Source: Fimbriiglobus sp.
Lineage (GTDB): Bacteria; Planctomycetota; Planctomycetia; Gemmatales; Gemmataceae
Reading direction: 5' to 3'
Length of the DNA: 38,215 bases
Assembly (NCBI GenBank): GCA_025352235.1
Contig: JANXTU010000241.1
Coordinates: 1-38,215 of the forward strand
Each line of letters starts with the position of its first letter. Position 1 is the first letter of the stretch. The position numbers and the translations under genes are program-made. This document shows positions 14,273 to 33,533 of the stretch, one piece after another. Below the pieces are notes generated by a model, which did not search any database, had not been told where the DNA came from, and saw only the letters and a program-made list of their open reading frames with translations.

Positions 14273-16591
14273 TCACCTGCTCGGGAGGGATTTCAAAGCG
14301 GCCGCGAGGGCGGCGACGGCCGCGGCGATTTCCGATTCCTCGGGCGCGGCCAATGAGGAACCAGCGTAGCGAACGCGGTAGAGTTTGGAAGACACGAACG
14401 CCGGCACCGCCGCGGCGGACGCGGCCGGCGTCGAGCGCAGGTACTCGCCGGCGCGGTCGGCGAATTCCTTGGGCGTCTCCCCGGCGGCGGGGAATTGGCC
14501 GTGGGCCTGCAGCACCGCGAGGTAGTCGCGGTACCACGGCAGATCGGACTCCGGCTCGGCGAGTCGATCGCGGCAGCGCCGGGCGAATTTTCGCCGCAGC
14601 GCGACGAGGAGGGCGACGGCGCCGGCCGCGACAAGGAAGTCCAGCGACCATTCGACGATGCCGCCGCGGATGGCCTCGACCGCCTCCTCCCGCTTTTTCG
14701 GATTGTAGCCGATGATGAAATCGTTCAAAAACGAGACTCCCAATTGCCGGGCCTCATCGAACCAATTCCCGTTTTTTTGCACCGCGGGGGCCCCGCCCGG
14801 CGTCGGGTCGAGCGTGAGCCAATGCCAGACTCGCTCGGCTTTGCGATTTTCCGGGTTTTTGAACGGGAACCCGGCGGGGGCCGCGCGGGGCACCATGACC
14901 TCGACCCAAGCGTGGGCGTGCTCTTGCCGAATCAAAATCTTGCCGTCGTCGGCGGAGTCGTACCCTTTGAATCCGACGACGAACTGCGCCGCGATGCCGA
15001 GGCTGCGGAGGGCGAGAGCCAGTCCGGCGGCGAAGCGTTCGCAGTGGCCGGCCTTGCCGTTCCAGAGGAAGTCTTCGATGGGGTCGATCTTGCGGTCCAC
15101 GCGGCGGAGCTTCGTGGAATACTCGAACTCGCCGGAGTTCAGGAAATGATCCCGGAACGCGCGGGCGACGGCCTCGTGGTGGTCCGGATGGAGGGCGAAG
15201 GACGCGCGGCGATCGGCGGTATCGAGGGCCGCTTGAGGCAAGCTCCCGTCGGCCACGTATTTTTTCAACAGATTGACGGCCCATTCCCGGATGCGCGGAA
15301 TCTCCATTTTGGCGAGGACGGCGCGCTCGGGTTCGGCCAAACCCGGGGTTCCGGAGCCGCTGGGTTCCATCGCCGGCCCCAATCCGGGCTCGGAAGGCGC
15401 CCGCGTTCGTTGCGTGTAGTGTTGCCGAACGCGGGCCCCGAATTTCGCGGGCGGGATGAACGAACCGTCGTACAAGGGGGACCACGCCTGGCGGTTGTCA
15501 CCCGCGCCGGCGACCGGAGCTTCTCGGTCGTCCGCCCAAAAGATGGGCGTCGACAGCACCGGCCCCGCGACTTTCTCGCTGCCCAGAAATTCGAGGTCAT
15601 ACTGCGAGTCCCCGAGGCCGGGCGCGCGGTACGGACTCGCCGTGCGGAGCTGCGATCCATAGCCCGACACGTACGACTTTCGGGCCCAACTGCCACCCGC
15701 GTATTCCGAATACGCCAATCCGCGCCAGAGTTGACCGGGGTCGAAATCGTTCTTCGGGCTGCCGTCCCGGTTCTCAGCCCGGACTTCGAACGCGATTTCC
15801 GAATTGGTCGTTTCGAGATCGCCGACCTTGCCCATGTCGTGGACGCTCTCCGGGTTGTACCCCGTTTCGATCCGCGACTTCGCGAAGGCCCAACGCTCGC
15901 CGCTGGAACGCGGGCTGAGGAAGAAAATCGGCAGCGAGACCACACAAGCCGCACCGAGCCAGAGGAGCGATCGGTACCACGCGCCGCGTTCGCCGTCGGC
16001 ATTTCGGGGCGCGTTCCCTTGTAAAATCTGCGGTCGCGAGATCGCTTTTCCTGGGAGCGGGGGGATGGCTCCGGTCGAGCGATTGGAAAGCAATAGCGAC
16101 AAACTCCAAGTCGCGGCGAGGGCGTACAGCGCGACGAGCACAAGGAAAAACGGATCGTCGGACATCGACGACGCGAGGACCACGGTCGCCAAACCGATCC
16201 CCTGCATCGTCCACCAATCGCCGACGTGCTTCGGGCGGAACAGCTTCGCCGGGATCAGGATCATCACCACCGGGCCCAAGTACGGCAGCAGATTCGCGGG
16301 CCACGCTAGGTGCGCGAGCGCCGAACTCGTGGGCCGGGTGAATTTCACAGCCAGCCAGCCGACGGCGACGATGCCGATGCCCAGCCCCAACAGATTCGCT
16401 TTGCCGAGACCGAGAGCCACGCGACCTTCCAAAAAAAACGACGCGATCAGCGAGAGGATCACGACCGCCATGAAAGCGATCGACTCGGGGACGAGGTCGT
16501 ACTCGGAATAGCCGAGCGCGACGCAGGCCAACAACAGCGTGGAGTAAGTGGCGATGCGGAACGGCAAGCTCAGCGGCGGGGGAGGGGTCAC
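14273..16591 (-). CDS. Membrane-anchored transglutaminase-like (TgpA-type) protein
   Basis: Multiple N-terminal TM segments (SLPFRIATYSTLLLACVALGYSEYDLVPESIAFMAVVILSLIASFFLEG...), transglutaminase core FLWNGKAGHCERFAAGLALALRSLGIAAQFVVGFKGYD...HAHAWVEVMVP and C-terminal TM. GTG start overlaps the DUF58 gene stop. ORF-track start (16945) over-extended. Confidence 0.87.
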   Translation of the reverse strand: MTPPPPLSLPFRIATYSTLLLACVALGYSEYDLVPESIAFMAVVILSLIASFFLEGRVALGLGKANLLGLGIGIVAVGWLAVKFTRPTSSALAHLAWPANLLPYLGPVVMILIPAKLFRPKHVGDWWTMQGIGLATVVLASSMSDDPFFLVLVALYALAATWSLSLLLSNRSTGAIPPLPGKAISRPQILQGNAPRNADGERGAWYRSLLWLGAACVVSLPIFFLSPRSSGERWAFAKSRIETGYNPESVHDMGKVGDLETTNSEIAFEVRAENRDGSPKNDFDPGQLWRGLAYSEYAGGSWARKSYVSGYGSQLRTASPYRAPGLGDSQYDLEFLGSEKVAGPVLSTPIFWADDREAPVAGAGDNRQAWSPLYDGSFIPPAKFGARVRQHYTQRTRAPSEPGLGPAMEPSGSGTPGLAEPERAVLAKMEIPRIREWAVNLLKKYVADGSLPQAALDTADRRASFALHPDHHEAVARAFRDHFLNSGEFEYSTKLRRVDRKIDPIEDFLWNGKAGHCERFAAGLALALRSLGIAAQFVVGFKGYDSADDGKILIRQEHAHAWVEVMVPRAAPAGFPFKNPENRKAERVWHWLTLDPTPGGAPAVQKNGNWFDEARQLGVSFLNDFIIGYNPKKREEAVEAIRGGIVEWSLDFLVAAGAVALLVALRRKFARRCRDRLAEPESDLPWYRDYLAVLQAHGQFPAAGETPKEFADRAGEYLRSTPAASAAAVPAFVSSKLYRVRYAGSSLAAPEESEIAAAVAALAAALKSLPSR

Positions 16592-17760
16592 GGCGCGTCT
16601 CGCTTCCCGGTGGAGGGTATCGGGGCCACGGCGCTCGGCGGGGCGAACCAGTGGATCGGCGTACTCGGATCGACGGCGGCGAACGAGAGCCCGGCCGCGC
16701 GGATCGCCCCTGCGACGGGGCCGCGCGGACGGGTACTGATGACGAGCCGCGCGGCTTTGTGGCGCAGCGCCGGGACGCGGTAGAGCGCGGTCGCGTCTAT
16801 GTCTGCAGTCCCGGCGATTTCGGCGAGTTTGAAAAAACCCTCGCGGACAAACAGCGGTGTCCCCGGGCCCGAATGCACCGAAATCGTCCGTTCGCAGACG
16901 ACGAGCGCAATGGTACCGGGGCTTTCTTCGTGGACCCACGCCCATGCCGCACTAAGCGCGAACGACAACGCCCATTCCAGTTTCCGCTGCGAGGCGGCTT
17001 CCGCCGGGCCACTCGGCACCCAAGGTTCGACGAAAATGGTGAGGTCGATCGGGGCGGTTTGGTCGTATTCGCGCACCATCCATTTCCCCCGGCGGGCCGA
17101 AGTCTTCCAGTGGATGTCGCGGACGCCGTCCCCCGTCCGGTGCGGGCGGAGGCCGCGGACATCGCCGTCGCTCGGCGTCCAGCGGGCCGGGGGGCGGCGC
17201 GAGCGATCGTCCCCGTGGCCGGTGCGGATCAGGAATCGTTTCAGCAACCGCGCGTTTACCGTCCCGAGCGGCGGCAAGACGAGTTGTTCGCCGGCGGTGG
17301 TCAGAGTGCGCTGGAACGCCAAGATGCCGAGCGGGTAACCCGAACGGGCGACCAAAGGCGGCAACGGATGCCGACCCCGCGTGAGGAATGTGGCCTTCGT
17401 CGAGGCCGGAATGGTGGAGGCGCCGTCGAAATGCGGGGCGTACCAAACTGCGCCGTTGGGCCCGGCCATTTCCGCCAAACTCAGCGACTTCACACGGTCA
17501 TCCGGATTGGTAAACTCCGCATGGAGCGTGGTTTCTTCCCCTGAGAAGGCGGGGGCGTGCGGGATGCGACGGGCCGTGATGCCGTGCGTCATCCGGTGGG
17601 CCAGAAAGGCGTTGATCGCGAGGAGCGCGGCCAGTGTGTAGGAAACTAGCAACAAAACGTTGATGGTTTTCATCCAGCCGACGACGCCGACGAGCACCGC
17701 TGCCAAAAGCCACCAAACGAGGGCGGGACCAGCCCGGTAGCCCGTGCGGGGGGTCGGCAT
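16588..17760 (-). CDS. DUF58 domain protein
   Basis: TM hairpin then DUF58 signature GVRDIHWKTSARRGKWMVREYDQTAPIDLTIFVEPW. Alternative GTG start at 17790. Confidence 0.9.
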   Translation of the reverse strand: MPTPRTGYRAGPALVWWLLAAVLVGVVGWMKTINVLLLVSYTLAALLAINAFLAHRMTHGITARRIPHAPAFSGEETTLHAEFTNPDDRVKSLSLAEMAGPNGAVWYAPHFDGASTIPASTKATFLTRGRHPLPPLVARSGYPLGILAFQRTLTTAGEQLVLPPLGTVNARLLKRFLIRTGHGDDRSRRPPARWTPSDGDVRGLRPHRTGDGVRDIHWKTSARRGKWMVREYDQTAPIDLTIFVEPWVPSGPAEAASQRKLEWALSFALSAAWAWVHEESPGTIALVVCERTISVHSGPGTPLFVREGFFKLAEIAGTADIDATALYRVPALRHKAARLVISTRPRGPVAGAIRAAGLSFAAVDPSTPIHWFAPPSAVAPIPSTGKRDAP

Positions 17761-17809
17761 TGTCCCGGCGGCGGGGGATGTCGGGGCCACGCGTCCGCCT
17801 CGGGGGATG

Positions 17810-18796
17810 TTAAACGGGCACTTTCGTTTTCGACACGATATCGGCCACGACGGACTCGGTGTCGTTGCGACCGCCTTGGTCCCACGCCTTCGTCATGATG
17901 CGGTGTGCCAGCACGGGCACCGCCAAAGCCTTGACGTCGTCGGGCGTCACGTACTGCCGGCCGGACAGCATGGCGAGGGCTTGCGAGGCACGGTAGTACG
18001 ACAGTGCCGCCCGCGTGCTCGCCCCGAGGGAGACTTCCGAATGGACGCGGGTCGCTTCGATCAAATCGAGGAGGTAGTCCGCGACGGGGGGTTCGACCTT
18101 CACGCTGCGGACCACCATCTGGAGCGCCACGATGTCGCTGGGCCGCAGGACCGGTTTGAGGTGGTCGACCGGTTCCCCGCGGCGGTGCTGCGTGAGGATC
18201 GCACGCTCGGAGGCGCGATCCGGGTAGCCGATTTTCACCCGCATCATGAAGCGGTCGAGCTGGCTTTCGGGCAGCGGGTAAGTCCCCTCGAACTCGTAGG
18301 GGTTCTGCGTGGCGAGCACGAGGAATGGCGGCCCGAGCGGCCGGGTGACGCCGTCGATGGTCACTTGGCGTTCGCTCATCGCTTCAAGGAGGGCCGACTG
18401 GGTGCGAGGCGTCGCCCGGTTGATTTCATCCGCGACGACGACCTGCGAGAAGATCGGACCGGGGACGAATTCGAACTTCGCCTCCCGCTGATTCAAAATG
18501 TTCGTGCCGAGCAAATCGCCCGGCAGCAAGTCCGGCGTGAATTGGATCCGCGAGAATTTGCACTCCAAACTCTTGGCGAGCGCCTTGGCGAGCAGCGTTT
18601 TGCCGACGCCGGGAACGTCTTCGAGCAGAAGGTGGCCGTCGGCGAGCAACGCGATGACGGCGAAGCGGATGACCTCCGCCTTGCCGAGGAAAACCCCGGC
18701 GACGTTGTCGCGGAGGCTATCGACCAAGTGAGCCAATTCGGCGGGGGGTTGGGCTTCGGGCGTGGGCAAGTAGCTCGTGGCGGGCGGGTGCGACAT
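17810..18796 (-). CDS. MoxR-family AAA+ ATPase
   Basis: LLADGHLLLEDVPGVGKTLLAKALAKSL...FSRIQFTPDLLPGDLLGTNILNQ...GPIFSQVVVADEINRATPRTQSALLEAMSERQVTIDG; upstream of DUF58 in the usual order. Confidence 0.95.
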   Translation of the reverse strand: MSHPPATSYLPTPEAQPPAELAHLVDSLRDNVAGVFLGKAEVIRFAVIALLADGHLLLEDVPGVGKTLLAKALAKSLECKFSRIQFTPDLLPGDLLGTNILNQREAKFEFVPGPIFSQVVVADEINRATPRTQSALLEAMSERQVTIDGVTRPLGPPFLVLATQNPYEFEGTYPLPESQLDRFMMRVKIGYPDRASERAILTQHRRGEPVDHLKPVLRPSDIVALQMVVRSVKVEPPVADYLLDLIEATRVHSEVSLGASTRAALSYYRASQALAMLSGRQYVTPDDVKALAVPVLAHRIMTKAWDQGGRNDTESVVADIVSKTKVPV

Positions 18797-21572: not shown

Positions 21573-22178
21573 ATGATTCTGCAAATCGCCACCGTCGTGC
21601 CGTGTACGGAAGCCGAAGGGCCCGGGCGGCGGTTCGCGCTCTGGTTCCAAGGCTGCCCGCTGCGCTGCCCCGGTTGCTGCAACCCGGAGTACTTGCCGTT
21701 CAAGGGTGGGCAAGCGGTTGCACTGGTGGACATCGTCGAACAATGGCAACGATCGGAAATCGAAGGGATCACTCTGCTCGGCGGAGAACCGTTCGCCCAT
21801 GCGGAGGGGGCGGCCGCACTCGCGCGGGAAGCGCAAGAATTGGGGCTGTCGGTGATGGTCTTCACGGGGTATCTGCGGGAAGAATTGGAAGCGAAGAACG
21901 ACCCTGCGACGACGGCGTTGCTCGCGGAGACGGACATTCTCGTCGATGGGCCGTACGAGCGTGAGCGGCCCGATTTCTCGCGGCGGTGGATCGGTTCGAC
22001 CAATCAGCGTATCCATTTTTTGACGGCGCGATACCGTGCGGATGACCCGTGTTGGCAGAAGTCGAACACACTCGAAATCCGGGTGCGCGGTAGCGAAATC
22101 GTCGTCAACGGCTTCCCCGCGATTCCCGCTCTAGGATTGTGGAAGGGCTGGAAACGCAAAAGTGGAGCCGACGTATGA
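21573..22178 (+). CDS. Radical-SAM 4Fe-4S activase-like protein (NrdG-like)
   Basis: VVPCTEAEGPGRRFALWFQGCPLRCPGCCNPEY contains the CX3CX2C radical-SAM cluster motif; followed by GITLLGGEPFAHAEGAAAL and LSVMVFTGY. Confidence 0.88.
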   Translation: MILQIATVVPCTEAEGPGRRFALWFQGCPLRCPGCCNPEYLPFKGGQAVALVDIVEQWQRSEIEGITLLGGEPFAHAEGAAALAREAQELGLSVMVFTGYLREELEAKNDPATTALLAETDILVDGPYERERPDFSRRWIGSTNQRIHFLTARYRADDPCWQKSNTLEIRVRGSEIVVNGFPAIPALGLWKGWKRKSGADV

Positions 22179-23248
22179 CGACCGCCCTCGCGCCCACCGG
22201 CCCGCCGGCGGTGTCGCGCTTCGAGTACAACATGCTCCGGATCCTGCGCTTCCTCGTCGGCCAGATGCCGGCGGATCAGGCCATGAACCTCGTGTACGCG
22301 AAGCTCCCCGCCCCGCCCTGCCTCAGCCGCGTCTGCGTCCGCATCGCCCAAGATACCTTGGCCAAAGCGAGCGTCTTGCACCTCGCCGAATCGGGTGGCT
22401 GGCGGCGTGAGCGATTCTTGGTCGATCGCCGGCCGACGGAAGGGCGTGTCTGGGAACGACTGCCATTAGAATTGCGGAAGCTTGCATTCGGCCCAAGTCC
22501 CTTGGCGTTTCTGATGTGGTTGACAGCCGAAAAACCGACCGATACTTCGAATCGGTGGGATGCGCCGGGCGGACTGACGGCGGCCGACGAACTCTTTTTC
22601 CTGATGGCCTACGACGAATTGAAGGCCGAGCCGGAAGTGGCTCAGGCCCTCGTCGAGAAACACTACTTTCGGGGCAACCCGCTGGTGCGGCTCGCCTATG
22701 CCGGTGACTTCGCGGGCGCCGTGCCGGATTTCACGGGCTGTTTCACCGGGACCCGGGTCGCGATCCTCGAATGCCTCCAGCCGGTGTTCGCTAAGCGGTG
22801 GATTCGCTCGGAGCGGGCCAAGGGGCAGATCGGCGATTGGAAGCGGATGCGCCGGCAAGGCGAAGTCGAGCTCGAGACGCTCCGGGCTTTTTTGAAAGCC
22901 GCGAATGAGGCCCGCCGGCCCGATCTCGCCCGGTTTGTGCTCGTGGCCAATTCCGTCTTGCTCGCCCCGCCCGAACTCGGACTCGGATTCTGGACGGGCG
23001 GCCTCCAGGGCCAAGGTCCTGGACGTTTGGCGGATCGGATCGAAACGCAACGGGTGGCCCTAGCCTTCCCCCGGCAGCTCGAAACCCTGCAAAGCTGGGA
23101 ACGACAAGCCCGCAACGTCGGCTATTATGAGGAGGACTACGCCGCGAGCCAACTCTGGAAAGCGGACTGGGAATTGGCCCGCGGCGACACCGTTGCGGCG
23201 AAAGCCCGGGCACTGGTCGAACGACTGGACCCCCTGCGGACCGGGTGA
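22175..23248 (+). CDS. Uncharacterised protein (orphan component of the putative FtsH-like cluster)
   Basis: 357-aa ORF MTTALAPTGPPAVSRFEYNMLRILRFLVGQMPADQAMNLVYAKL...; ATG overlaps the radical-SAM stop (ATGA). No family recognised. Confidence 0.8.
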   Translation: MTTALAPTGPPAVSRFEYNMLRILRFLVGQMPADQAMNLVYAKLPAPPCLSRVCVRIAQDTLAKASVLHLAESGGWRRERFLVDRRPTEGRVWERLPLELRKLAFGPSPLAFLMWLTAEKPTDTSNRWDAPGGLTAADELFFLMAYDELKAEPEVAQALVEKHYFRGNPLVRLAYAGDFAGAVPDFTGCFTGTRVAILECLQPVFAKRWIRSERAKGQIGDWKRMRRQGEVELETLRAFLKAANEARRPDLARFVLVANSVLLAPPELGLGFWTGGLQGQGPGRLADRIETQRVALAFPRQLETLQSWERQARNVGYYEEDYAASQLWKADWELARGDTVAAKARALVERLDPLRTG

Positions 23249-23259
23249 AGAAGAAGCAA

Positions 23260-23426
23260 GATTTTCACCACGGAGAAAGAAGAGGACGCGGAGAAGATGA
23301 AATAGAAACGATTCAAAAGAGTTTGGTCACTGCTGGTGCCCATCTCTGATTCTGGATTGACTCCGCGTCCTCTTCTTTCTCCGCGGTAAAAATCTTCCTC
23401 CTGCACTGTGTCTCTGTGGTGAAATC
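23260..23426. repeat. Long imperfect hairpin plus a third half-unit of a CACGGAGA-type intergenic repeat
   Basis: Left arm 23260-23293 GATTTTCACCACGGAGAAAGAAGAGGACGCGGAG; right arm 23361-23394 is its reverse complement with 2 mismatches in 34; 23401-23426 CTGCACTGTGTCTCTGTGGTGAAATC is a related inverted unit. Confidence 0.88.
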
Positions 23427-23441
23427 TTTCGGAGCCATCGA

Positions 23442-24014
23442 ATGAGCAGAGCCTATCGGATCACGGTGAAGGAATCGTCGACCCGCGAGCTGAAAGGCTC
23501 GGATGAGATCTGCACGCAGCTCGAAGTTCTCGAGATTCTGCCGCCCGAGGTGATGGCGGAGTTGCTGAAGAAAGAATTGATTCAAAAGGGATACGCCGAG
23601 AACCCGGACGGCACGCTCTCCCGTTCCGATGGCAACACCACTGTGACGGTGAATCCGAAGACGTTTGAGGTCTCGGTGAAGTCGCAAGTGGGCGAGGAGG
23701 TCACGCTCGAATCGAAGCGCGAGACCTTCGGTTACGACGACGTCGGCCCCGGCCAGCAGGAACTCCGCGAGCGCTTGAAGAAACAACTCGACGACGACAT
23801 CGACAAAAAGGCCGAGCGCGAATCGGAACGACTGCAAGGGCAAGCCACGGCCGAGTTGGAAGAAAAGCTCTGCGACCTGCAACCGGAACTGAGCGAGGTC
23901 GTGAACAAAGTGACCCGCGAAGCGCTCAAGCAGAAAGCCCGGCAGCTCGGCAATATCAAGGAACTGACCGAAGACGAAGAGACCGGTTCGCTGACGATCA
24001 AAATCGAGGTTTAA
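23442..24014 (+). CDS. Uncharacterised 190-aa protein, coiled-coil-like C-terminal half
   Basis: MSRAYRITVKESSTRELKGSDEICTQLEVLEILPPEVMAELLKKELIQKGY... then a charged helical region; in the 21.6-33.5 kb co-oriented block. Confidence 0.82.
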   Translation: MSRAYRITVKESSTRELKGSDEICTQLEVLEILPPEVMAELLKKELIQKGYAENPDGTLSRSDGNTTVTVNPKTFEVSVKSQVGEEVTLESKRETFGYDDVGPGQQELRERLKKQLDDDIDKKAERESERLQGQATAELEEKLCDLQPELSEVVNKVTREALKQKARQLGNIKELTEDEETGSLTIKIEV

Positions 24015-24015
24015 C

Positions 24016-24094
24016 GAATGCGGAGTTCGGAGTGCGGAATCCAAGATCGATCTCCTCGCCTTTTCTGCACTCCGCATTCCGAACTCCGAACTCC
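24016..24094. repeat. Intergenic inverted repeat of GGAGTTCGGAGTGCGGA-type units
   Basis: GAATGCGGAGTTCGGAGTGCGGAATC versus GCACTCCGCATTCCGAACTCCGAACTCC; reverse complements share CGGAGTTCGGARTGCGGA (17/18). Confidence 0.8.
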
Positions 24095-24102
24095 AGGTGA
24101 AG

Positions 24103-26247
24103 ATGTCCATCCTGACCGCCGAAGCCGAACTCCCCTCGTCGCTCGACCTTCAACAGGCCGTGGATGTGGCCTACGCCGCGGAACTCGCCGAGATCGCGGG
24201 GAACATCCTGCGCGGCTTGCCGAGCCTCGTGGAGTGCGATAAAGAACTCGCGCCGTTCGTGTTCATGAGCGTCCGCACGCGTTTGCGCGAGCGTAACGTG
24301 AAGTGCATCTATCTCGACGGCCGACCCCGCGAAGCGGAAGGCTCGAACGCCGGCGCCGCGCCGATGGGTCTGATCGGCACTATGATCTCGCAACTGCGCG
24401 AAGCGGTGCGGGGAGCCGTGGAAAAACGGGTCGTCGTGCTGCCGCACTTGGATTTGCTGACGACGAACACCGGCGGCCTGACGGGGGAATCCCGCGAGGT
24501 CATCCCCCTGCTCTACGAGAACCCCGACCTCGTCTGGCTCGGGTTCAAAGATCCGTCGTTCCCGCTGCCGAAGGTGATCGAGAATCTGTTCCCGCACCGG
24601 CTCAGCATCCTCGGATTGAACCGCACGACGCTGAAAAAGATCGTGACCCAGCGCGAGGCCCGCAAGTTCGGCAAGACGTTCAACCCGTGGCAGCTTTATA
24701 AATATGTTTCGGGTTTGAACGCCGTGCGCTTGCGGAAATTACTCTCGACTTTGGAAGGCGAAGATTACCCCGCCGACCCGAAGAAGGCATACCTGCAACT
24801 CCGCCAAGCGACGTTGTCCGGGGCGCTCGAAATCCCCGATGTCGACCTCGACCGGGACATCGGCGGCTACGCCAAAACCAAGAAACAACTCCGCCAAGAA
24901 ATCCTCGATGTCCTCGCCCGCCGCGATGCCTCGACTAACCCGGACGACATCGCCCGACTCGAAGAATTGATCCCCCGCGGAATGATTTTCTGGGGCCCGC
25001 CCGGCACCGGCAAAACCTACTTCGCCAAAGCTATCGCCACCGCCATCGGCGCCGCGATCACCATCGTCTCCGGGCCGGAATTGAAATCGAAGTGGGTCGG
25101 CGAGTCGGAAGAAAACCTGCGGATGGTCTTCCACAAGGCCCGGCAATCGGCCCCCGCGATCATCGTCTTCGACGAACTCGATTCCTTTGCCACGCGCCGC
25201 GGCAGCTACTCCGGCTCCGGCGTCGAACACAGTATGGTCAACCAACTCCTGACGGAGATGGACGGCTTCCACAAAGAGGAACTCGTCTTCGTCGTCGGCA
25301 CCACGAACTTCGTCGAATCGCTCGACCCCGCTCTCCTGCGCCCTGGCCGGTTCGAGTTCCACTTGCACATTCCTTATCCGGACGACACCGACCGCCGCGA
25401 GATTTTGAAGATCTACGACAAGAAGATGAAGCTCGATTTCACCGACGAGGCGATCGATTACGCCGTGCGTCGCACCGGCGAAAACTTCATGACGAGCACC
25501 GGTACCGCCTTCAGCGGGGACCATTTGAACGCCCTCTGTCGATCCGTGGCCCGCGTTCGCCTGCGGGACGACATCGTCGGGCCGTCGACCCAAAAAGAAA
25601 TCGAACGCGGCTTCAACGAGTACGAAGAGAAGGTCGATCTCAGCGACAAAGATTCCATCCTCGTGGCCACGCACGAAGGCGGGCACTTCGTGGTGTCGCT
25701 CTTCTGCCTGCATCACCCGCACCCCGAACGCGTCACCATCCAATCCGAGATGCCTTGGGCGCCGTTTTACACCGGGTACAAAAAAGACGACACCCGCAAG
25801 GTCGGCTACAGCCGCAGCGAATTGTTCGACCGGCTTTGCGTCCTCTACGGCGGTATCGAAGCCGAGCGATTGCTCATCGGCGATGTGAGTACCGGGGCGA
25901 GCGCGTTCGGCAATCCGCAGGGGGATTTGTTCCGCGCCACGCAACTGGCGATGATGATCGTCGAGACCTGCGGGATGTCCGGGTTGCAAGCCTCACTGCG
26001 GGTCTACCGCGACGAAAAAGGCGCCCGCGAAGTGATCTCGGGAAGCACGGCCGAAGCCATCGACCGTCAGGTGAACACGATCATCGTCGAGGCCCAAGCG
26101 CGGGCCGCGAAAATTTTGCTCGACCATAGGGCGGAACTCGAGAGCGTCCGCGAGGAATTGATGCGCGTGAAGACGATCGAATCGACCCGCATCAACGAGA
26201 TCATCGAAGCGGTGCGGAGCAAGTATGCGGATGAGTTCAAGGGTTGA
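24103..26247 (+). CDS. Soluble FtsH-like AAA+ protease: degenerate N-terminal AAA-like region + AAA ATPase + M41 zinc metallopeptidase
   Basis: Walker A GPPGTGKT, Walker B IIVFDELD, SRH LDPALLRPGRFEFHLHIPYPD, zinc motif HEGGH, third-ligand region GDVSTGASAFGNPQGDLFRAT; no N-terminal TM helices. GTG alternative at 24097. Confidence 0.93.
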   Translation: MSILTAEAELPSSLDLQQAVDVAYAAELAEIAGNILRGLPSLVECDKELAPFVFMSVRTRLRERNVKCIYLDGRPREAEGSNAGAAPMGLIGTMISQLREAVRGAVEKRVVVLPHLDLLTTNTGGLTGESREVIPLLYENPDLVWLGFKDPSFPLPKVIENLFPHRLSILGLNRTTLKKIVTQREARKFGKTFNPWQLYKYVSGLNAVRLRKLLSTLEGEDYPADPKKAYLQLRQATLSGALEIPDVDLDRDIGGYAKTKKQLRQEILDVLARRDASTNPDDIARLEELIPRGMIFWGPPGTGKTYFAKAIATAIGAAITIVSGPELKSKWVGESEENLRMVFHKARQSAPAIIVFDELDSFATRRGSYSGSGVEHSMVNQLLTEMDGFHKEELVFVVGTTNFVESLDPALLRPGRFEFHLHIPYPDDTDRREILKIYDKKMKLDFTDEAIDYAVRRTGENFMTSTGTAFSGDHLNALCRSVARVRLRDDIVGPSTQKEIERGFNEYEEKVDLSDKDSILVATHEGGHFVVSLFCLHHPHPERVTIQSEMPWAPFYTGYKKDDTRKVGYSRSELFDRLCVLYGGIEAERLLIGDVSTGASAFGNPQGDLFRATQLAMMIVETCGMSGLQASLRVYRDEKGAREVISGSTAEAIDRQVNTIIVEAQARAAKILLDHRAELESVREELMRVKTIESTRINEIIEAVRSKYADEFKG

Positions 26248-26252
26248 GTGTC

Positions 26253-26412
26253 GAGTCCAGCGTTTGGACGTTGAGTCCAGCGTTTGGACGTTGAGTCCAG
26301 CGTTTGGACGTTGAGTCCAGCGTTTGGACGTTGAGTCCAGCGTTTGGACGCTGAGTCCAGCGTTTGGACGTTGAGTCCAGCGTTTGGACGCTGAGTCCAG
26401 CGTTTGGACGCT
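26253..26412. repeat. Eight perfect-phase tandem copies of a 20-bp hairpin-forming unit
   Basis: GAGTCCAGCGTTTGGACG[T/C]T x8 plus a degenerate ninth (GAGTCTACGC). Each unit holds the hairpin GTCCA-GCGTT-TGGAC. Confidence 0.97.
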
Positions 26413-26491
26413 GAGTCTACGCAAGGGTGTGCGACTTCTCGCTGGACTCGAGGATTGGTCACTCGGCAAAGTTTCATTAGGAATTCCACAC

Positions 26492-26755
26492 ATGGCCGAA
26501 GTCTTGATCCTCCTCCGGCGCGACCCGACGACCGGGAAGCAGAACATCATCGTGAAGCTCGAATCGGACCCGGATTCGCTGCCGATCGAGCACGAGCAAT
26601 TGCACAAGCGGATCGTTGAGAAATTGGTCGGCAAAGGGATGAAGGCCGAGGATTTGGGCGACATCGTCATCGAGCGCGAAGGTTCGCTCGAACCGAAGGC
26701 GACGAACGAACCGAGCGAAGCCGAGCGCAAAAAGACCGCCCAGGGCCAGAGCTGA
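26492..26755 (+). CDS. Uncharacterised 87-aa protein
   Basis: MAEVLILLRRDPTTGKQNIIVKLESDPDSLPIEHEQLHKRIVEKLVGKGMKAEDLGDIVIERE...; AGGAA RBS upstream; stop one base before the next ATG. ORF-track start at 26384 lies in the repeat and is unlikely. Confidence 0.75.
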   Translation: MAEVLILLRRDPTTGKQNIIVKLESDPDSLPIEHEQLHKRIVEKLVGKGMKAEDLGDIVIEREGSLEPKATNEPSEAERKKTAQGQS

Positions 26756-26756
26756 C

Positions 26757-29700
26757 ATGATCCTCAGTTTCCCCGACCTCGACACGTTCCGCCTCGCGGC
26801 GACCGGCACGCTGTTGCCGGCCGAATTGACACTCGCCCCGGCACGGGTGCGCGTCGAAACGGACGGTCGCCTCCTTCTGGAAACCGCTGGCAAAGTCTCG
26901 AAGAAGGCCGCGGGCGAACTGACCCGGTTGAACGTCGCGGCCTTGAAAACCATCTCCGGTCCGACTGAAGAAATCTCGTGTTGGCTGCAAGCGCTCAACG
27001 CCGAGCGGGACGAAACCCCGCCGTTCTCGACGCAGACGCCGGTGATTTTCGAAGTGCCCGACCCGGCGACCTTGCCGCAGTTGGTCGGCGAAATGCTCCG
27101 CCTCGGCAACGACCGCCAAAGCTACTGCTGGCTCGAAACCGAAGGCGAGAGCCGCGTGCTGCTCCGCGTCGTCGGACCGCCGTACTACACGCTGTTGCAA
27201 TCGCTCGACCCGCATTTCTCCGGTTCGCTGCGGACCCTCACCGCGTTCGTCGAACAGGCCCCGCGGGTCTGGGTGCAGATCGGGTACCGACACCCCGTCG
27301 CATCGCGCATCAAACTCGCCAACGAGCAAATGCTGTTGATTCGACCGGGGCGGAAGTGGACCTACCTCGACGACCCGCCCTTCCGCGACATTTACGACGC
27401 GCTCCAATTCCCGCTGCCCTCGGCGCCGACGTCGTGGCAGGCCGTCGAAAAACCGGAGAAACTGACGATTCCGCTGAAGCTTGCGGCGGGGAATGCGGCC
27501 GATCTCCCCGAGTTCTGGGTACTGCGCGATCGCGCCGCCGAGCGGCTCGACGCCTTCGTGCGCGACGCCGATGACCGGTTGATCCAGCGGCTCCGCTTCG
27601 CCGTATCCGAACCCGGCGACGCTGCCGAGAGCGTGATTGCCCTGCGGCTCAGCCCGTCGAAATTGCCGCCACCGGCGCTCGAACTCTCCGGGGCGGTCGG
27701 ATACAAACCGTATTTCAAATTGACGAATCTGTACCTCCCGACGGGATCGCGGCTGCATCCGCAATTGCGCCGCGACGCGGTGCGCACGCTCTTGGCCGGC
27801 GATCCGGACCGGGTCGTTTGGTTGTCGCCGGGGACCGACGGCGCGTTCGTCCCCGAATCGATGGCCGAAGACGCGTTCCGCCCACTCGAGCACTGGGTCG
27901 ATTACATTTTGGAATCGTCGCCAGCACCGCTGAAGGCGTGGATCGCCGCAACGGAATTCGATTTTGAATCGTTCGTCTGTTCGGATGTCGCCGCGAAGCC
28001 ACGCGGTCCGGACCGCGGCACGAAAGAGCGCGGCCGGAGCATTCCGACCGATGGCCACAGTCCGCTGCAACCGGAGTCGGTGCCACCGGCACTCGATGCG
28101 GGCGCTTCGCAAAACTTTGCATCCGTCACGCCGAAGCCGGTCGATGAGTCGCAACGCATCGACGAATGGAAGCTCCGCCGGCAGGCGCTGCAAGACGAAT
28201 TTCAGAGATACGACGGCGGACTCGACCGACCGGAGCGGCAGTCGTTGTGGCCGGCATTGGCGCGGGCCAACACCGGCGCCGGCGATGCGGCCGAAGCCGC
28301 GATCTGCTGGGTCAACGCGATGTGGGAGTACGATTCGCTCCCGGCCGAACTCGCGGCGGGCTGGTTTCGAACCGAACACCCGAATCGAAAAGAATCGGCC
28401 GGTTTTTCGGGGATTGAAATCGACCAACTTCTCCGCAGCCAAAATCCGGATCGCATCGAAGTCCGTCAACTCGCCAGCGCCGCGTTGGCCGCGTTGATTC
28501 TCGACCCGGCACCCGAGTGGTTGCCCGCGCGATTGCCCGCGATCCAACACTATTTGGAAGCGAACGACGGCAAGCTCCCGGTACGGGCCGTCTGGCTGTT
28601 GGCGTTGGAGATGGCCGCGCAAACCGGGGCCGACATACTCGGTTTGGCCCGCGTGCGGGATCGGATCCTCCAGCGGCTGCTCGATGGCGGCTTGAACGCC
28701 GAGACCGACCTGCCCTTTTTCCTCCGTACCGCGGGGCTGAAGGATTCGGAACGAGTCCGTTTGGTCCGCGATCAAGCGGTGACCTTGCACCGACTCTGCC
28801 GGAAATGGGCCGAGGCGGCAACCGTATCGCCCACCGCCACCGGCGCGCGGGATAACCGTCAGACGCTCCCGTACATCGATCTGCTCTTCTCGTTCGCACA
28901 GGCGAAACTCGGGGAGATCACTTCGGCGAGAACGATGCTCGAGTCCGCCCGGAAAGAGATGGAGCCCCGCCTGCCGGCCGACGCGAAATCGCTGACGGCC
29001 CACTACCTGTTCCAGGCGTTCCGCCACCGGGTCGAAGAGGCTCTGGCCGGGAAGCCGCCCGCGATGAGCCTACCGCGCGAACTGATCGTAGCGATCGACC
29101 AATTGGTGGTTCTCGGAAAGGGGATCGCGAACAGCCCGCACGCGATGGCGAATTTCGCCATCGCGCGGATGCGGCAGCAATCGACGATTTTGGAACCGCA
29201 AGAGCGCAACAGCCCGTACGCGCACATCATGGGCGACGGCGATGAATTCCTCAAAGCCCTCTACAAGATCGGTTCGCTGCGCGAACCCGCCGAGCTCGCC
29301 CGGCACGTCCGCACACTCTACCGCGGGGGCATTGGCGGCAAAGACCCGCGCCCGCTCGCGGCGGTGCGCCTGCTGACCCTCCACGCGGCCGTGCCGTGGG
29401 CCATCCGCGCGGGCGAAGCCTTCACGTTGGAACTTTTGGGCCTCGTCCCCGAAAGCCTCAAAGCCGATGCAGTGTTTGATTCGGTGCCGGAACTCAACCG
29501 CATTCAAGGCCAACTCCTCGAGCGATCGTTGTTCCTCGCGGCCCATTTCGACCGCCGCGATCTCGTTGGCCGGTTGCTCGATCAATTCGTCGAATTGGTC
29601 GGGACCAAAGCGGTCGACCAGCGCTTCGAACTCGTCAACTTCGTCGCCGGGCAATGTCTCCGGAGCCTCCGGAAACTCGGCCTGCGCGACGAGATCGACA

Positions 29701-30236
29701 AACTCCTCCGGCGGATCTTGGCGGTCGTTCTCGAAGGCAAAACTTTGCAGCAATGGAAAACCCGGTACGCCGCCCGGCCGGATCAATGGTGGCGCGCCCT
29801 GCAGACCCTCCTCAACATGGCGAGCGGTTGGTTGACCTTCGGCAATTTCGACCAAGCCAATCCCATCTTGGACGAAGCCCGGGCGGAGTTATTGGCGCCG
29901 AGCCGCCGGGCCAACGATCCGCCGCCGGTGGAATTCGCCAAGCTCGCGCAGGGCTATATCGCGGCCGTGGCCCAAGGCCCGAGCGAAAGCGGCCTGACCC
30001 GCATCGCCGAACTCTTCGAGCGGATGGATCCCGCGCGCGTGCCGGTCGGCTATTCGACGGCCCCATTTTATTCCCGGCTGCACCTCAACATCGTCGAAGA
30101 GGTCGTCCTCGCGATCGTCAGCGACGACTTCGCCCTCGGGCCGGGGGGGCGGCGTTGGCTGGACGAAGACGAATTCCTCGTCCGGCGGCGCCTCCACCGC
30201 GATATGCAAACGTCCCTCGCCCAGAGCCGGCTTTGA
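26757..30236 (+). CDS. Giant cytosolic protein (1159 aa), paralogue 1; N-terminal uncharacterised beta-rich-looking domain and C-terminal helical-repeat region
   Basis: MILSFPDLDTFRLAATGTLLPAEL...RVVGPPYYTLLQSLDPHF...APRVWVQIGYRHP...WLDEDEFLVRRRLHRDMQTSLAQ; long single ORF coupled to the preceding gene. Confidence 0.88.
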   Translation: MILSFPDLDTFRLAATGTLLPAELTLAPARVRVETDGRLLLETAGKVSKKAAGELTRLNVAALKTISGPTEEISCWLQALNAERDETPPFSTQTPVIFEVPDPATLPQLVGEMLRLGNDRQSYCWLETEGESRVLLRVVGPPYYTLLQSLDPHFSGSLRTLTAFVEQAPRVWVQIGYRHPVASRIKLANEQMLLIRPGRKWTYLDDPPFRDIYDALQFPLPSAPTSWQAVEKPEKLTIPLKLAAGNAADLPEFWVLRDRAAERLDAFVRDADDRLIQRLRFAVSEPGDAAESVIALRLSPSKLPPPALELSGAVGYKPYFKLTNLYLPTGSRLHPQLRRDAVRTLLAGDPDRVVWLSPGTDGAFVPESMAEDAFRPLEHWVDYILESSPAPLKAWIAATEFDFESFVCSDVAAKPRGPDRGTKERGRSIPTDGHSPLQPESVPPALDAGASQNFASVTPKPVDESQRIDEWKLRRQALQDEFQRYDGGLDRPERQSLWPALARANTGAGDAAEAAICWVNAMWEYDSLPAELAAGWFRTEHPNRKESAGFSGIEIDQLLRSQNPDRIEVRQLASAALAALILDPAPEWLPARLPAIQHYLEANDGKLPVRAVWLLALEMAAQTGADILGLARVRDRILQRLLDGGLNAETDLPFFLRTAGLKDSERVRLVRDQAVTLHRLCRKWAEAATVSPTATGARDNRQTLPYIDLLFSFAQAKLGEITSARTMLESARKEMEPRLPADAKSLTAHYLFQAFRHRVEEALAGKPPAMSLPRELIVAIDQLVVLGKGIANSPHAMANFAIARMRQQSTILEPQERNSPYAHIMGDGDEFLKALYKIGSLREPAELARHVRTLYRGGIGGKDPRPLAAVRLLTLHAAVPWAIRAGEAFTLELLGLVPESLKADAVFDSVPELNRIQGQLLERSLFLAAHFDRRDLVGRLLDQFVELVGTKAVDQRFELVNFVAGQCLRSLRKLGLRDEIDKLLRRILAVVLEGKTLQQWKTRYAARPDQWWRALQTLLNMASGWLTFGNFDQANPILDEARAELLAPSRRANDPPPVEFAKLAQGYIAAVAQGPSESGLTRIAELFERMDPARVPVGYSTAPFYSRLHLNIVEEVVLAIVSDDFALGPGGRRWLDEDEFLVRRRLHRDMQTSLAQSRL

Positions 30237-30254
30237 TCCACCGGGTGCCGGCCC

Positions 30255-33200
30255 ATGCTCTCCCTCTTCTTCCCCAATGCGGACGCTTTTCGGCTCGCAC
30301 TCGCGTCCGGGATCATCCCCGGTGATGTCGCCGACGCGGAGGTCGCCGCCGCGCCGGGTCCCGGCGGATTTTGGGTGCGTTCGCGGGCGGCGCTCTCCAA
30401 AGACGCCTTTGCGGCGCTGGCCCATATCGGTGTCCGCCCGTTCGCCAGCCCCGCCGAATCGGTATTCCGCCAATACCCCTGCTGGCCGGCGGCGCTCCCT
30501 TTGAAACGCTGCGACGAGCAGTCGGTGGACGCGCCCGTGTTGTTCGAACTTTCGCCGACGCGGCTGGCGAACTTCCTCGGGGAACTCGCGCGCTGCGGGA
30601 GCCCGATCGACGGCTTCCAATTGACGGCCGATGCGGCGTTCGTACGCTCGGCACGAGCCCCCGAGTATTGGATCGAACGGAGTCGGACCGAACCCGATTC
30701 CGCGATCCGGAGTTATCGCCTCGCCGCGACGAATTTCTGGGTGGAATCGGGTTGGATGCACTCGCTCGCGCCGAGCGCCGGCGATTCCCGTGCGACTCTC
30801 GTTTCGGTGACCGAAGGCTGGCGACGGTTCGATTTGGATCCGTGGCACGCCCCGCGCGAAGTCTTCGCCCTCCGGCTCGCCCCGGCGTGCGCGTGTCCCA
30901 CAATGCCTCTCGCGCGGATCGAGATCGCCCTCCGGTTGAAGCCCCGCACGACCGGAGACGAAATCGATTCGCTTTGGATTCACCCCGGTTCGCTCGCGGA
31001 CGTTCGCGGTCCGCTCGAATCGATCGATCCCCGCGCGGGGCGGCGACTCGAAATCGCGCAACTTTGGAGTGCGGACGGGGCCTGCATCGCCCTCAGAACG
31101 ACCGGTTCGCGCCCGGACTTCGCCCCGGCGGGGTCGTGGATTTCTTTCGCCGCGCATCCGCGCTGGAAACAATTGTGGATCCCGTCCAACCGGGAATTGG
31201 CCCCGGTCGTCCGCGACGCGGTCTTGCTACGGGAGTTGCGAATACAGCCCGGAGAAATGGCGTGGCTCGAATCGGCCGGGAATAGCGTGCGCGGCAATCG
31301 CTTTCCCACCGCCGCGTTTCGACCGCTTGCCGAAGTGATCCGATACACGGCCCCGGCGGCGCTCGCGATCCACCGCGCGCGACCCTCCGAAACACCGTTC
31401 GCGTTGACCGGTTTCGTGGCGATTCCCGAACCGGGACCGGGCTCGATGTCTTCCGGCGCGGTGCCGATGTACCGCCCGCCGCCGGCGCCCGCCGGGCCCG
31501 GTGAAACGGCGCGCAGCCGCTTCTTCAAATGGGCGGGCCGGCTCTTCGCCCCGTCGCGGGACACGTCGATCGCAGACGAGATCGAACCTGACGAACCTGT
31601 CGAAACGCACGGCGTTCCGCGCCGGACGCGGCTCTCGCAGCAAGAGCGATTGGCCCGCCGGGCCGAGTTGCAAGAGCTTCTTTTTCGCCGGGATGCAACG
31701 GCGCGGAACGCGGAGTGGGCCGAACTCGCGGAGTTGTTCGCCGAGGGCGGCCACCCGGCCGACGCCGTCCTCTGCTGGCTCCACGCGATTTGGGGGATGG
31801 CCAAGCCGCCCGAAGATTGGCTGCAATCGTGGGCCAAACTCGAAACGCGCGGGGCGAAGACGACCCCGCTACGGGGCCGGCTCGTCGAACGGATTCGGCT
31901 CGCGCACGCCCCGGCGGCGCAAGTCGCGGTGACGCCCGGCATCGACCCCCGCGCGGCGTCGGCCGAACTGGATCGCGCGGAGGACGAGTTGCCGTGCCGG
32001 ATGGTTTGGCTCGCCCGAACGGCGCTCGCCGATCTCGCCGGTGGGGACGCGCTCCAACTCGCGCGGTGCCGGGATCGCCTGTTCGCCCGGCTTCAAAATG
32101 AGACCGCTCTCGCCGCGCTCGACACGCCGTCGTTCCTGCGCTTTCGAGGGCTGTCGGGGAGCGACCGCTTTCCGCTCGCGCGCGATTGGCTGGTGCGCTG
32201 CCGGGAACCGATCCAGCGCTGGTTGAAGCGGCAAGCGACGGACGACCGACCGGCTTGGGCCGCGTCCGATGCGGACCGGACCTGCACCGCATGCTACGCC
32301 GATGGCATGCTCGCATGGGGCTTCGCCAAACTCGGCGACCGGGGCCGCGCGAACGAACTCGGCGACGCGGCGTCCGCCGCACCCCACCCCGATGCCGTCA
32401 CGGGCGTCCACCGGCGATTGCAAGAGTATTTCCGCGGGGAAATCCAACTCGCGCTCGGTGCCCAACTCGACTCATCGAATGCGGATGGTGCGCCCCTCGA
32501 TGAACTCGGCGAGTACGCCGTGGCGAAGTTGTCGGCCCATTCGCAAATCCTCGGCCGGCGCCGGGGGCGCTCCGAATTCGGCGGCCGGCCGTTGTTCGCC
32601 CTGATGGGGGACGACGACCTCGGTCGGTCGTTGATCCGATTGCTCGAAGCGAATGCGACGCCCGACGGATCGACCGTGCGATCTCTCCTCGACGCGGTGA
32701 AATCCGATCGCACGGCGGGATCGTTGCCGCGCGTGATCCTCGCGCTGCTCGAAGTCGTACGGGCCCCCGAGGCCGTCGCGGAAGTCCTCGCGCTCACCCC
32801 GCTCGCTTTGGAGTTGCTGCCGGAGGCGTTGCGGCTCCGCGGGATCGTCGAAACCGATTCGCCGGGCTATTCGATCCGCCTCGCCGCGCGCGCGGTCGAA
32901 GTCGTCGGGGCGTCGGCCGTGGAATTCGACCACCCGGACAGTTTGCGGGCGCTGTTGACGAGCTTGAGCCGCGCGCTCGAGGAGAACGACCCGACGGCCC
33001 GCGAAATCTTCCGCCTGACGGCACCGCGGTTGTTCCGCGCGTTGAGCCGCTGCGGATTGACGGCCGAACTCCGGCCCTTGCTGGCGCGCTGGTACCGGGT
33101 CGGGGCCGACGACCCGGAGATGCAGCTGTGCGCCGCCATCGGCTGGTTCGCACTGGGCGAGGTCGAGCGCGGCAACCGCATCCTCAACGACGCGCGCGAA

Positions 33201-33533
33201 CGGTTGTTCGTCGTCGGCCTCTCGAATGAACGCGACCGCACGCGCATCGCGCTCGCTTACGCGCACGCGCTCGCGCACGCCCCGCCGCGGTTGGCCCTCG
33301 GTCGCTTGGAAGAACTGTTCCAACGCCTCGGCCCCATCGCCGCCGGCGGTGCCACGGCCCGATATTACGCGCTGAAGCCGCTGGAGTTGATCGATACCGC
33401 GATCACCGCCGTCGTAAACGAAGAATTCGGCCTCGGCCCCGACATGCGCAGCTGGCTCGACGAAGACGAACTGCGGATCCGCCGGCGGATCACCCGCGAC
33501 TTAGAAGCCGCGATCCGTGCGCGACCGATCTGA
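30255..33533 (+). CDS. Giant cytosolic protein (1092 aa), paralogue 2
   Basis: MLSLFFPNADAFRLALASGIIPGDV...; shares start, mid (EAAICWVNAMW / DAVLCWLHAIW) and end (DDFALGPGGRRWLDEDEFLVRRRLHRDM / EEFGLGPDMRSWLDEDELRIRRRITRDL) with paralogue 1. Confidence 0.88.
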   Translation: MLSLFFPNADAFRLALASGIIPGDVADAEVAAAPGPGGFWVRSRAALSKDAFAALAHIGVRPFASPAESVFRQYPCWPAALPLKRCDEQSVDAPVLFELSPTRLANFLGELARCGSPIDGFQLTADAAFVRSARAPEYWIERSRTEPDSAIRSYRLAATNFWVESGWMHSLAPSAGDSRATLVSVTEGWRRFDLDPWHAPREVFALRLAPACACPTMPLARIEIALRLKPRTTGDEIDSLWIHPGSLADVRGPLESIDPRAGRRLEIAQLWSADGACIALRTTGSRPDFAPAGSWISFAAHPRWKQLWIPSNRELAPVVRDAVLLRELRIQPGEMAWLESAGNSVRGNRFPTAAFRPLAEVIRYTAPAALAIHRARPSETPFALTGFVAIPEPGPGSMSSGAVPMYRPPPAPAGPGETARSRFFKWAGRLFAPSRDTSIADEIEPDEPVETHGVPRRTRLSQQERLARRAELQELLFRRDATARNAEWAELAELFAEGGHPADAVLCWLHAIWGMAKPPEDWLQSWAKLETRGAKTTPLRGRLVERIRLAHAPAAQVAVTPGIDPRAASAELDRAEDELPCRMVWLARTALADLAGGDALQLARCRDRLFARLQNETALAALDTPSFLRFRGLSGSDRFPLARDWLVRCREPIQRWLKRQATDDRPAWAASDADRTCTACYADGMLAWGFAKLGDRGRANELGDAASAAPHPDAVTGVHRRLQEYFRGEIQLALGAQLDSSNADGAPLDELGEYAVAKLSAHSQILGRRRGRSEFGGRPLFALMGDDDLGRSLIRLLEANATPDGSTVRSLLDAVKSDRTAGSLPRVILALLEVVRAPEAVAEVLALTPLALELLPEALRLRGIVETDSPGYSIRLAARAVEVVGASAVEFDHPDSLRALLTSLSRALEENDPTAREIFRLTAPRLFRALSRCGLTAELRPLLARWYRVGADDPEMQLCAAIGWFALGEVERGNRILNDARERLFVVGLSNERDRTRIALAYAHALAHAPPRLALGRLEELFQRLGPIAAGGATARYYALKPLELIDTAITAVVNEEFGLGPDMRSWLDEDELRIRRRITRDLEAAIRARPI

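Follow-up and report, generated by a model that had tools for sequence, protein, structure and literature searches.

An FtsH-Centered Ternary-System Module in a Gemmataceae-like Planctomycete and Its Dispersed MoxR and vWA Partners

Seven co-oriented genes on a planctomycete contig almost certainly form the FtsH-centered module of an FtsH-vWA-MoxR ternary system, whose MoxR and ivWA partners are encoded on two other contigs of the same genome. The window, namely the whole 38,215-nt stretch of DNA that was analyzed, belongs to genome G000, a Gemmataceae-like planctomycete of 613 contigs and 90% completeness. MoxR and ivWA are predicted with high confidence to act with the FtsH module in trans. 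An ancestral single operon was taken apart in Gemmataceae with all of its parts kept, and this dispersal is new here. No mention of it was found in the searched parts of Kaur et al. 2020 (eLife 9:e52696, PMC7159879), while individual Gemmataceae loci may stand in the supplementary tables of that paper. A literature search found no experiment on any member of an FtsH ternary system.

Results and Discussion

Gene Organization and Family Membership

All seven plus-strand open reading frames listed in the initial annotation were present, and a gene caller trained on the codon usage of the region recovered each of them (Table 1). They are not chance reading frames, because orthologues of each were found in other genomes. 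The annotation had guessed that the locus belongs to the FtsH-ternary family, and had proposed a domain search of the seven proteins and a neighborhood comparison across Gemmataceae. The guess was borne out by Pfam, whose "FtsH ternary system domain" models named five of the seven proteins (fvmX6, fvmX5, fvmX3-analog and, twice, fvmX7; hereafter X6, X5, X3a, X7A, and X7B), alongside AAA and M41 models, and the neighborhood proved to be conserved across the family. The "several start/stop overlaps or 1-bp gaps" reported at the same time held for one 4-bp overlap (radical SAM/X6) and one 1-bp gap (X3a/X7A), whereas the X6–X5, X5–FtsH, and FtsH–X3a gaps measured 193, 88, and 244 bp. X7A and X7B are 18 bp apart, and a gene labeled PGM follows X7B after 30 bp. 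An additional gene, rtcA, which was absent from the annotated run, lies on the same strand 64 bp upstream of the radical SAM gene. Repeats, inverted or tandem, occupy all three large gaps of the module; the X5–FtsH gap holds a 28-nt inverted repeat (24016–24094), and copies related to the 42-nt inverted repeat of the X6–X5 gap recur at several further genomic sites.

Table 1. Features of the ternary-system locus in window coordinates.
Feature	Position	Strand	Evidence
rtcA, RNA 3'-terminal phosphate cyclase, 346 aa	20468..21508	+	PF01137 3.6e-67; TIGR03399 above cut-off
Small NrdG-like radical SAM enzyme, 201 aa	21573..22178	+	PF13353 8.9e-33, PF04055
fvmX6 protein, 357 aa	22175..23248	+	PF20004 4e-129; alignment A2
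Inverted repeat, X6–X5 gap	23252..23402	.	two 42-nt arms, 90% complementary
fvmX5 protein, 190 aa	23442..24014	+	PF20003 6e-71
Soluble FtsH-like protease (AAA+/M41), putative, 714 aa from ATG	24103..26247	+	PF00004 1.8e-41, PF01434 2e-26
20-bp tandem repeat, 8.2 copies, FtsH–X3a gap	26253..26417	.
fvmX3-analog, 87 aa	26492..26755	+	PF20002 4.8e-34
fvmX7 protein A, 1159 aa	26757..30236	+	PF20005 3.3e-82
fvmX7 protein B, 1092 aa, diverged paralogue	30255..33533	+	PF20005 9.7e-21

In the parts of Kaur et al. 2020 (PMC7159879) used here, the FtsH ternary class is defined by a MoxR, a divergent vWA, and an FtsH with one inactive and one active AAA+ domain, and the simple type by a helical-vWA fusion together with a radical SAM gene. 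With the simple type so described, the window system shares the Pfam domain set, an FtsH whose first, N-terminal AAA+ domain is inactive (no P-loop or Walker B) and whose second is active, a helical-N ivWA, a MoxR with the GxxxTAKS P-loop, and a stand-alone radical SAM gene that is present and conserved. It differs in that its core is located at three places in the genome, rtcA stands 5', and X7 is in tandem duplicate; no NEFF1 effector was recognized in the window system. Of the parts of the complex (Ubl-conjugation) type, JAB, E1, E2-Ubl, RING, and beta-propeller-vWA, none was recognized in the window operon, and its ivWA is of the helical_N type. The window system is the simple, radical-SAM type as characterized in that source. 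The same source discovered the class through core genes in one neighborhood, which is a matter of discovery rather than a functional requirement. The core genes do not share one neighborhood in G000 or in most Gemmataceae, including the single-contig genomes G004, G011, and G035; co-occurrence stands in for linkage.

The FtsH-like Protease

The soluble AAA+/M41 protease of the initial annotation carries an intact AAA+ domain of the active type with conserved AAA+ residues, an M41 peptidase domain whose zinc site is intact, and a predicted AAA+ fold at the N-terminus in place of a membrane anchor. Its M41 zinc residues H524, E525, H528, and D608 (HExxH plus the third-ligand aspartate) were invariant in 45 orthologues. 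A GTG at 24097 is an alternative start, which gives 716 aa. Residues 2–248 were predicted to adopt an AAA+ fold with a lid (pLDDT 84), for which Foldseek gave PCH-2 (E 7e-7), then p97 and Vps4. The model of this N-domain matched 231 PDB chains at E<=1e-3, and the best 50 of the 231 were all AAA+. Profile comparison alone showed no AAA+ homology for the N-domain, and it was the structure comparison that settled the fold; in the alignment, the domain has no GxxxxGK[ST] P-loop. Since the N-terminus is modeled as an AAA+ fold, the protein would have no membrane anchor and would be a soluble motor-protease. Housekeeping FtsH (TIGR01241) likewise combines AAA+ with M41 and retains the zinc ligands, whereas the window protein scores 248.9 bits against an equivalog cut-off of 600, has the predicted AAA+ domain where the anchor would be, and possesses an AAA+ region that a profile search placed near p97 as well as near FtsH structures.

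MoxR and ivWA Partners outside the Window

The initial annotation noted no vWA protein and set aside the only MoxR of the window (17810–18796, − strand), rightly so: this is another MoxR, because it has an ordinary GVGKT P-loop, matches the bpMoxR model at just 1.6e-08, and lies alongside a DUF58 gene. It was thus rejected as the ternary partner. These two genes and a further protein (14273–16567) make up a minus-strand group at 14273–18796 unrelated to the ternary system. A matching MoxR was found on another contig of G000 (C44:271–1308; bpMoxR E 1.6e-62, P-loop GPPGTAKS) and a matching ivWA, the divergent, inactive-type vWA, on a third (C14:2766–4241; PF19997 1.5e-39, helical N-terminus PF19996 5.3e-28), both unlinked to the module. 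The MIDAS of this ivWA is degenerate. A peculiar GxxxTAKS MoxR P-loop and a divergent vWA with a degenerate MIDAS are described for FtsH ternary systems in the parts of Kaur et al. 2020 (PMC7159879) consulted.

Both genes accompany the module across relatives. Among 59 related genomes, many of which are MAGs, the module (X7 or X5) and ivWA occurred together in 29 and were both missing from 30, with none holding one alone (Fisher 1.7e-17, a value not corrected for phylogeny). For the fvm-type MoxR (187–214 bits), the same comparison gave 27 genomes with both, 2 with the module only, 0 with MoxR only, and 30 with neither; the two exceptions are G014, which is 84% complete, and G018, which is 7% contaminated. 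Ten of ten further X7-bearing genomes across the phylum encoded ivWA and seven of the ten encoded X5, on which ground a stand-alone use of X7 in other planctomycete families was rejected.

The annotation's conclusion that the locus is a reduced or variant form working without MoxR and vWA starts from the fact that neither gene of the system lies within the window locus; it is scarcely credible, as both are encoded elsewhere in the genome, co-occur with the module, and, in the case of MoxR, directly follow X7B in the sister species G003. With both motor parts present elsewhere in G000, the system is whole and scattered, not reduced.

Dispersal of the Operon

A contiguous run of the radical SAM gene, X6, X5, FtsH, X3a, X7, MoxR, and ivWA was found in Myxococcus, Pyxidicoccus, and the planctomycetes G049, G101, L184, and L202. 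Gemmataceae, of which 28 out of 37 genomes carry the module, mostly in single copy, and 9 lack it, retained the order from the radical SAM gene to X7, with ivWA elsewhere. In the single-contig genomes, ivWA and X7 were located at 1.56 and 1.77 Mb (G011), 1.26 and 1.76 Mb (G004), and 4.25 and 3.18 Mb (G035), that is, 0.2 to 1.1 Mb apart. Dispersal is hence not an effect of assembly. MoxR represents an intermediate stage, as it adjoins X7 in G003, G020, G026, G031, and others, adjoins ivWA in G016, and stands alone in G000. In another planctomycete family (f26), X7, X5, and ivWA are on separate contigs of fragmented assemblies.

The neighbor of ivWA in G000 (C14:1671–2465, locus L142) encodes a protein without a Pfam family that is conserved across the order and that, in 13 of 17 loci, is oriented divergently from ivWA. 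It was considered as a new component and rejected, since it is also found in genomes without the ternary system; we read it as a landmark of relocation. The position of ivWA beside the same unrelated gene in these loci, together with the presence of that gene where the system is missing, suggests one old relocation. Neighborhood-based surveys would score such whole Gemmataceae systems as incomplete; the present comparison identifies their unlinked MoxR and ivWA partners genome by genome.

On the FtsH tree, Myxococcota formed one clade. At L188 and L190, as well as L206 and L208, the genes 3' of FtsH were not recognized as X3a or X7 and may represent a further variant. L188 and L190 are from MAGs labeled Gemmataceae and Singulisphaera that hold near-identical modules on this tree, for which mis-binning or mis-labeling is likely.

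X7, X3-Analog, X5, X6, and Radical SAM Proteins

The two large proteins, annotated as paralogues from the outset, are 29% identical over their length. The predicted structure of X7A (model m6fd739ce817a, mean pLDDT 79.8) has an alpha/beta N-terminal domain followed by a long alpha-solenoid from residue 470. The fold search returned weak, generic alpha-solenoid matches alone, such as transportin and PPR, at a best E of 1.3e-3. Among the structure matches listed, none evidently corresponded to the N-terminal alpha/beta domain. Between G000 and G002, identity was 66.6% for X7A and 54.9% for X7B, compared with 94.1% for FtsH (388 aligned residues), 92.0% for X3a, and 82.4% for ivWA. Fast divergence, judged from these alignments, is confined to the putative X7 scaffolds, which is new here. 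Extra X7-type proteins apart from the FtsH module exist in the same genomes at L064 (G013:C4), L065 (G011:C1), and L066 (G036:C19), and the copy in G036 has an fvm-type MoxR closely 3'.

The motif E33-H34-E35-x-x-H38 (HExxH) of X3a showed no variation among 44 sequences drawn from two phyla, and its recognition in this 87-aa protein is new here. It provides a lead toward possible metal binding; a single motif in so short a protein is not enough to call it a peptidase. X5 is present in single copy in most relatives, and the nearest named relatives of the window protein are Fimbriiglobus MAGs. The radical SAM protein conserves the CxxxCxxC cluster motif (C28, C32, and C35 in 36 orthologues), and its gene holds the same operon position in Myxococcota.

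Proposed Mechanism

Taken as a whole, the FtsH module and the dispersed MoxR and ivWA probably constitute a two-motor machine for remodeling and proteolysis, an explanation in which we place fair confidence. The gene composition, the conserved catalytic residues, the folds, and the co-inheritance are shown, while the scheme by which such a machine would remodel and degrade its targets is a prediction and an even call. X7 solenoid scaffolds would carry a client or a surface for sensing signals, and the MoxR ring, coupled via the vWA adaptor, would remodel the X7-scaffolded assembly. The dead N-terminal AAA+ ring of the FtsH hexamer may serve as a docking platform, so that FtsH would unfold the exposed protein through a p97-like pore and cut it inside the M41 chamber. 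As a guess, X5, X6, and X3a act as adaptors or clients, one of which the radical SAM enzyme might modify. Myxococcus is a tractable host for examining this machine.

Association with RtcA and Possible Roles

RtcA was located immediately 5' of the radical SAM gene in 12 Gemmataceae (the window, G001, G003, G009, G010, G011, G013, G015, G019, G023, G029, and G035), and in G001 and G015 the two genes overlap by 4 bp. No gene family beyond RtcA recurred in more than three loci, and the myxobacterial operons lack RtcA. Of the genomes of the family, 22 carried both the module and RtcA, 6 the module only, 5 RtcA only, and 4 neither (p 0.21, not significant). RtcA as an obligate part of the module was rejected for lack of strict co-occurrence, as it is neither necessary nor sufficient. 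It is possibly an accessory, joined 5' in a lineage-specific manner, and this joining is new here.

As to what the machine does, a homeostatic role can be put forward tentatively: it would assemble or repair cellular complexes, or carry out damage-induced proteolysis, like the MoxR-vWA metallochaperone pairs, with a tie to RNA repair via RtcA in Gemmataceae. The vertical-looking inheritance, the conserved gene order, the retention of parts despite dispersal, and the RtcA joining agree with such a role, while the loose co-occurrence of RtcA and the dispensability of the module, as seen from the nine family genomes without it, speak against it.

An anti-invader role was proposed for FtsH ternary systems by computational inference in the parts of Kaur et al. 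2020 (PMC7159879) cited here: the system would be held inactive until a sensed virus or plasmid switches it on via MoxR-vWA remodeling, and would then deploy an effector, a radical-SAM-modified peptide, to contain the infection or kill the cell. For the window system we consider this conceivable, though doubtful. The case is drawn, for the family as a whole, from MoxR-vWA chaperones, from proteolysis, and from the link to a multicellular habit, to which the much faster divergence of X7 than of FtsH and the extra X7 copies in some genomes can be added. However, the two phyla share one constant gene set without a variable effector module, and the mostly single-copy module and the single myxococcal FtsH clade fit long-term inheritance better than a mobile defense island. 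Also, the window neighbors examined are housekeeping genes, and PADLOC yielded just generic AAA+ and weak radical SAM matches. For this subtype, the case for conflict from a "variable effector" is weakened by a constant gene set that is mostly single-copy, widely retained, and placed among housekeeping genes. The question of conflict versus homeostasis is thereby narrowed, as the gene set is constant and just the X7 scaffolds evolve fast.

A more specific form of the homeostatic role is rather unlikely as a whole. It holds that the Gemmataceae machine was vertically kept and dispersed into three pieces (the FtsH module, MoxR, and ivWA) that act in trans and are coupled through RtcA to RNA 3'-end repair. 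The proteolytic response would then be homeostatic and linked to RNA damage instead of being directed against viruses in a conflict system, and the small HExxH protein would bind metal and be a client of the radical SAM enzyme. It is very improbable that the radical SAM gene marks an operon for activation of an anaerobic ribonucleotide reductase or glycyl-radical enzyme, with the remaining genes as its chaperone: the best curated models of the enzyme are NrdG-like, but all NrdG and PflA scores fall well below the equivalog cut-offs, and no glycyl radical enzyme was recognized among the classified genes of the operon here or in Myxococcota.

Comparison with Other AAA+ Systems

NorQ/NorD, RavA/ViaA, and CbbQ/CbbO are metallochaperone pairs consisting of a MoxR ATPase and a vWA partner. 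The ternary vWA differs from these in that most members lack the DxSxS MIDAS and that it is predicted to work beside a second AAA+ motor with a protease domain. The Ycf46-DUF1257-DUF2997 module of cyanobacteria and others, which sometimes includes a radical SAM gene, also combines an AAA+ protein with a middle-sized protein and one of approximately 70 aa, whereas it has no M41 domain, X6, X7, MoxR, or vWA. Homology of X5 with DUF1257 and of X3a with DUF2997 was rejected (hhalign probability of approximately 1% or less). At L248 (G184:C71), a cluster located at approximately 5–9 kb contains a Ycf46-like AAA+ gene, DUF1257, DUF2997, and a radical SAM gene, as a second AAA+ system sharing the enzyme; its radical SAM protein is clearly related to that of the window (122 bits, E 1.9e-37).
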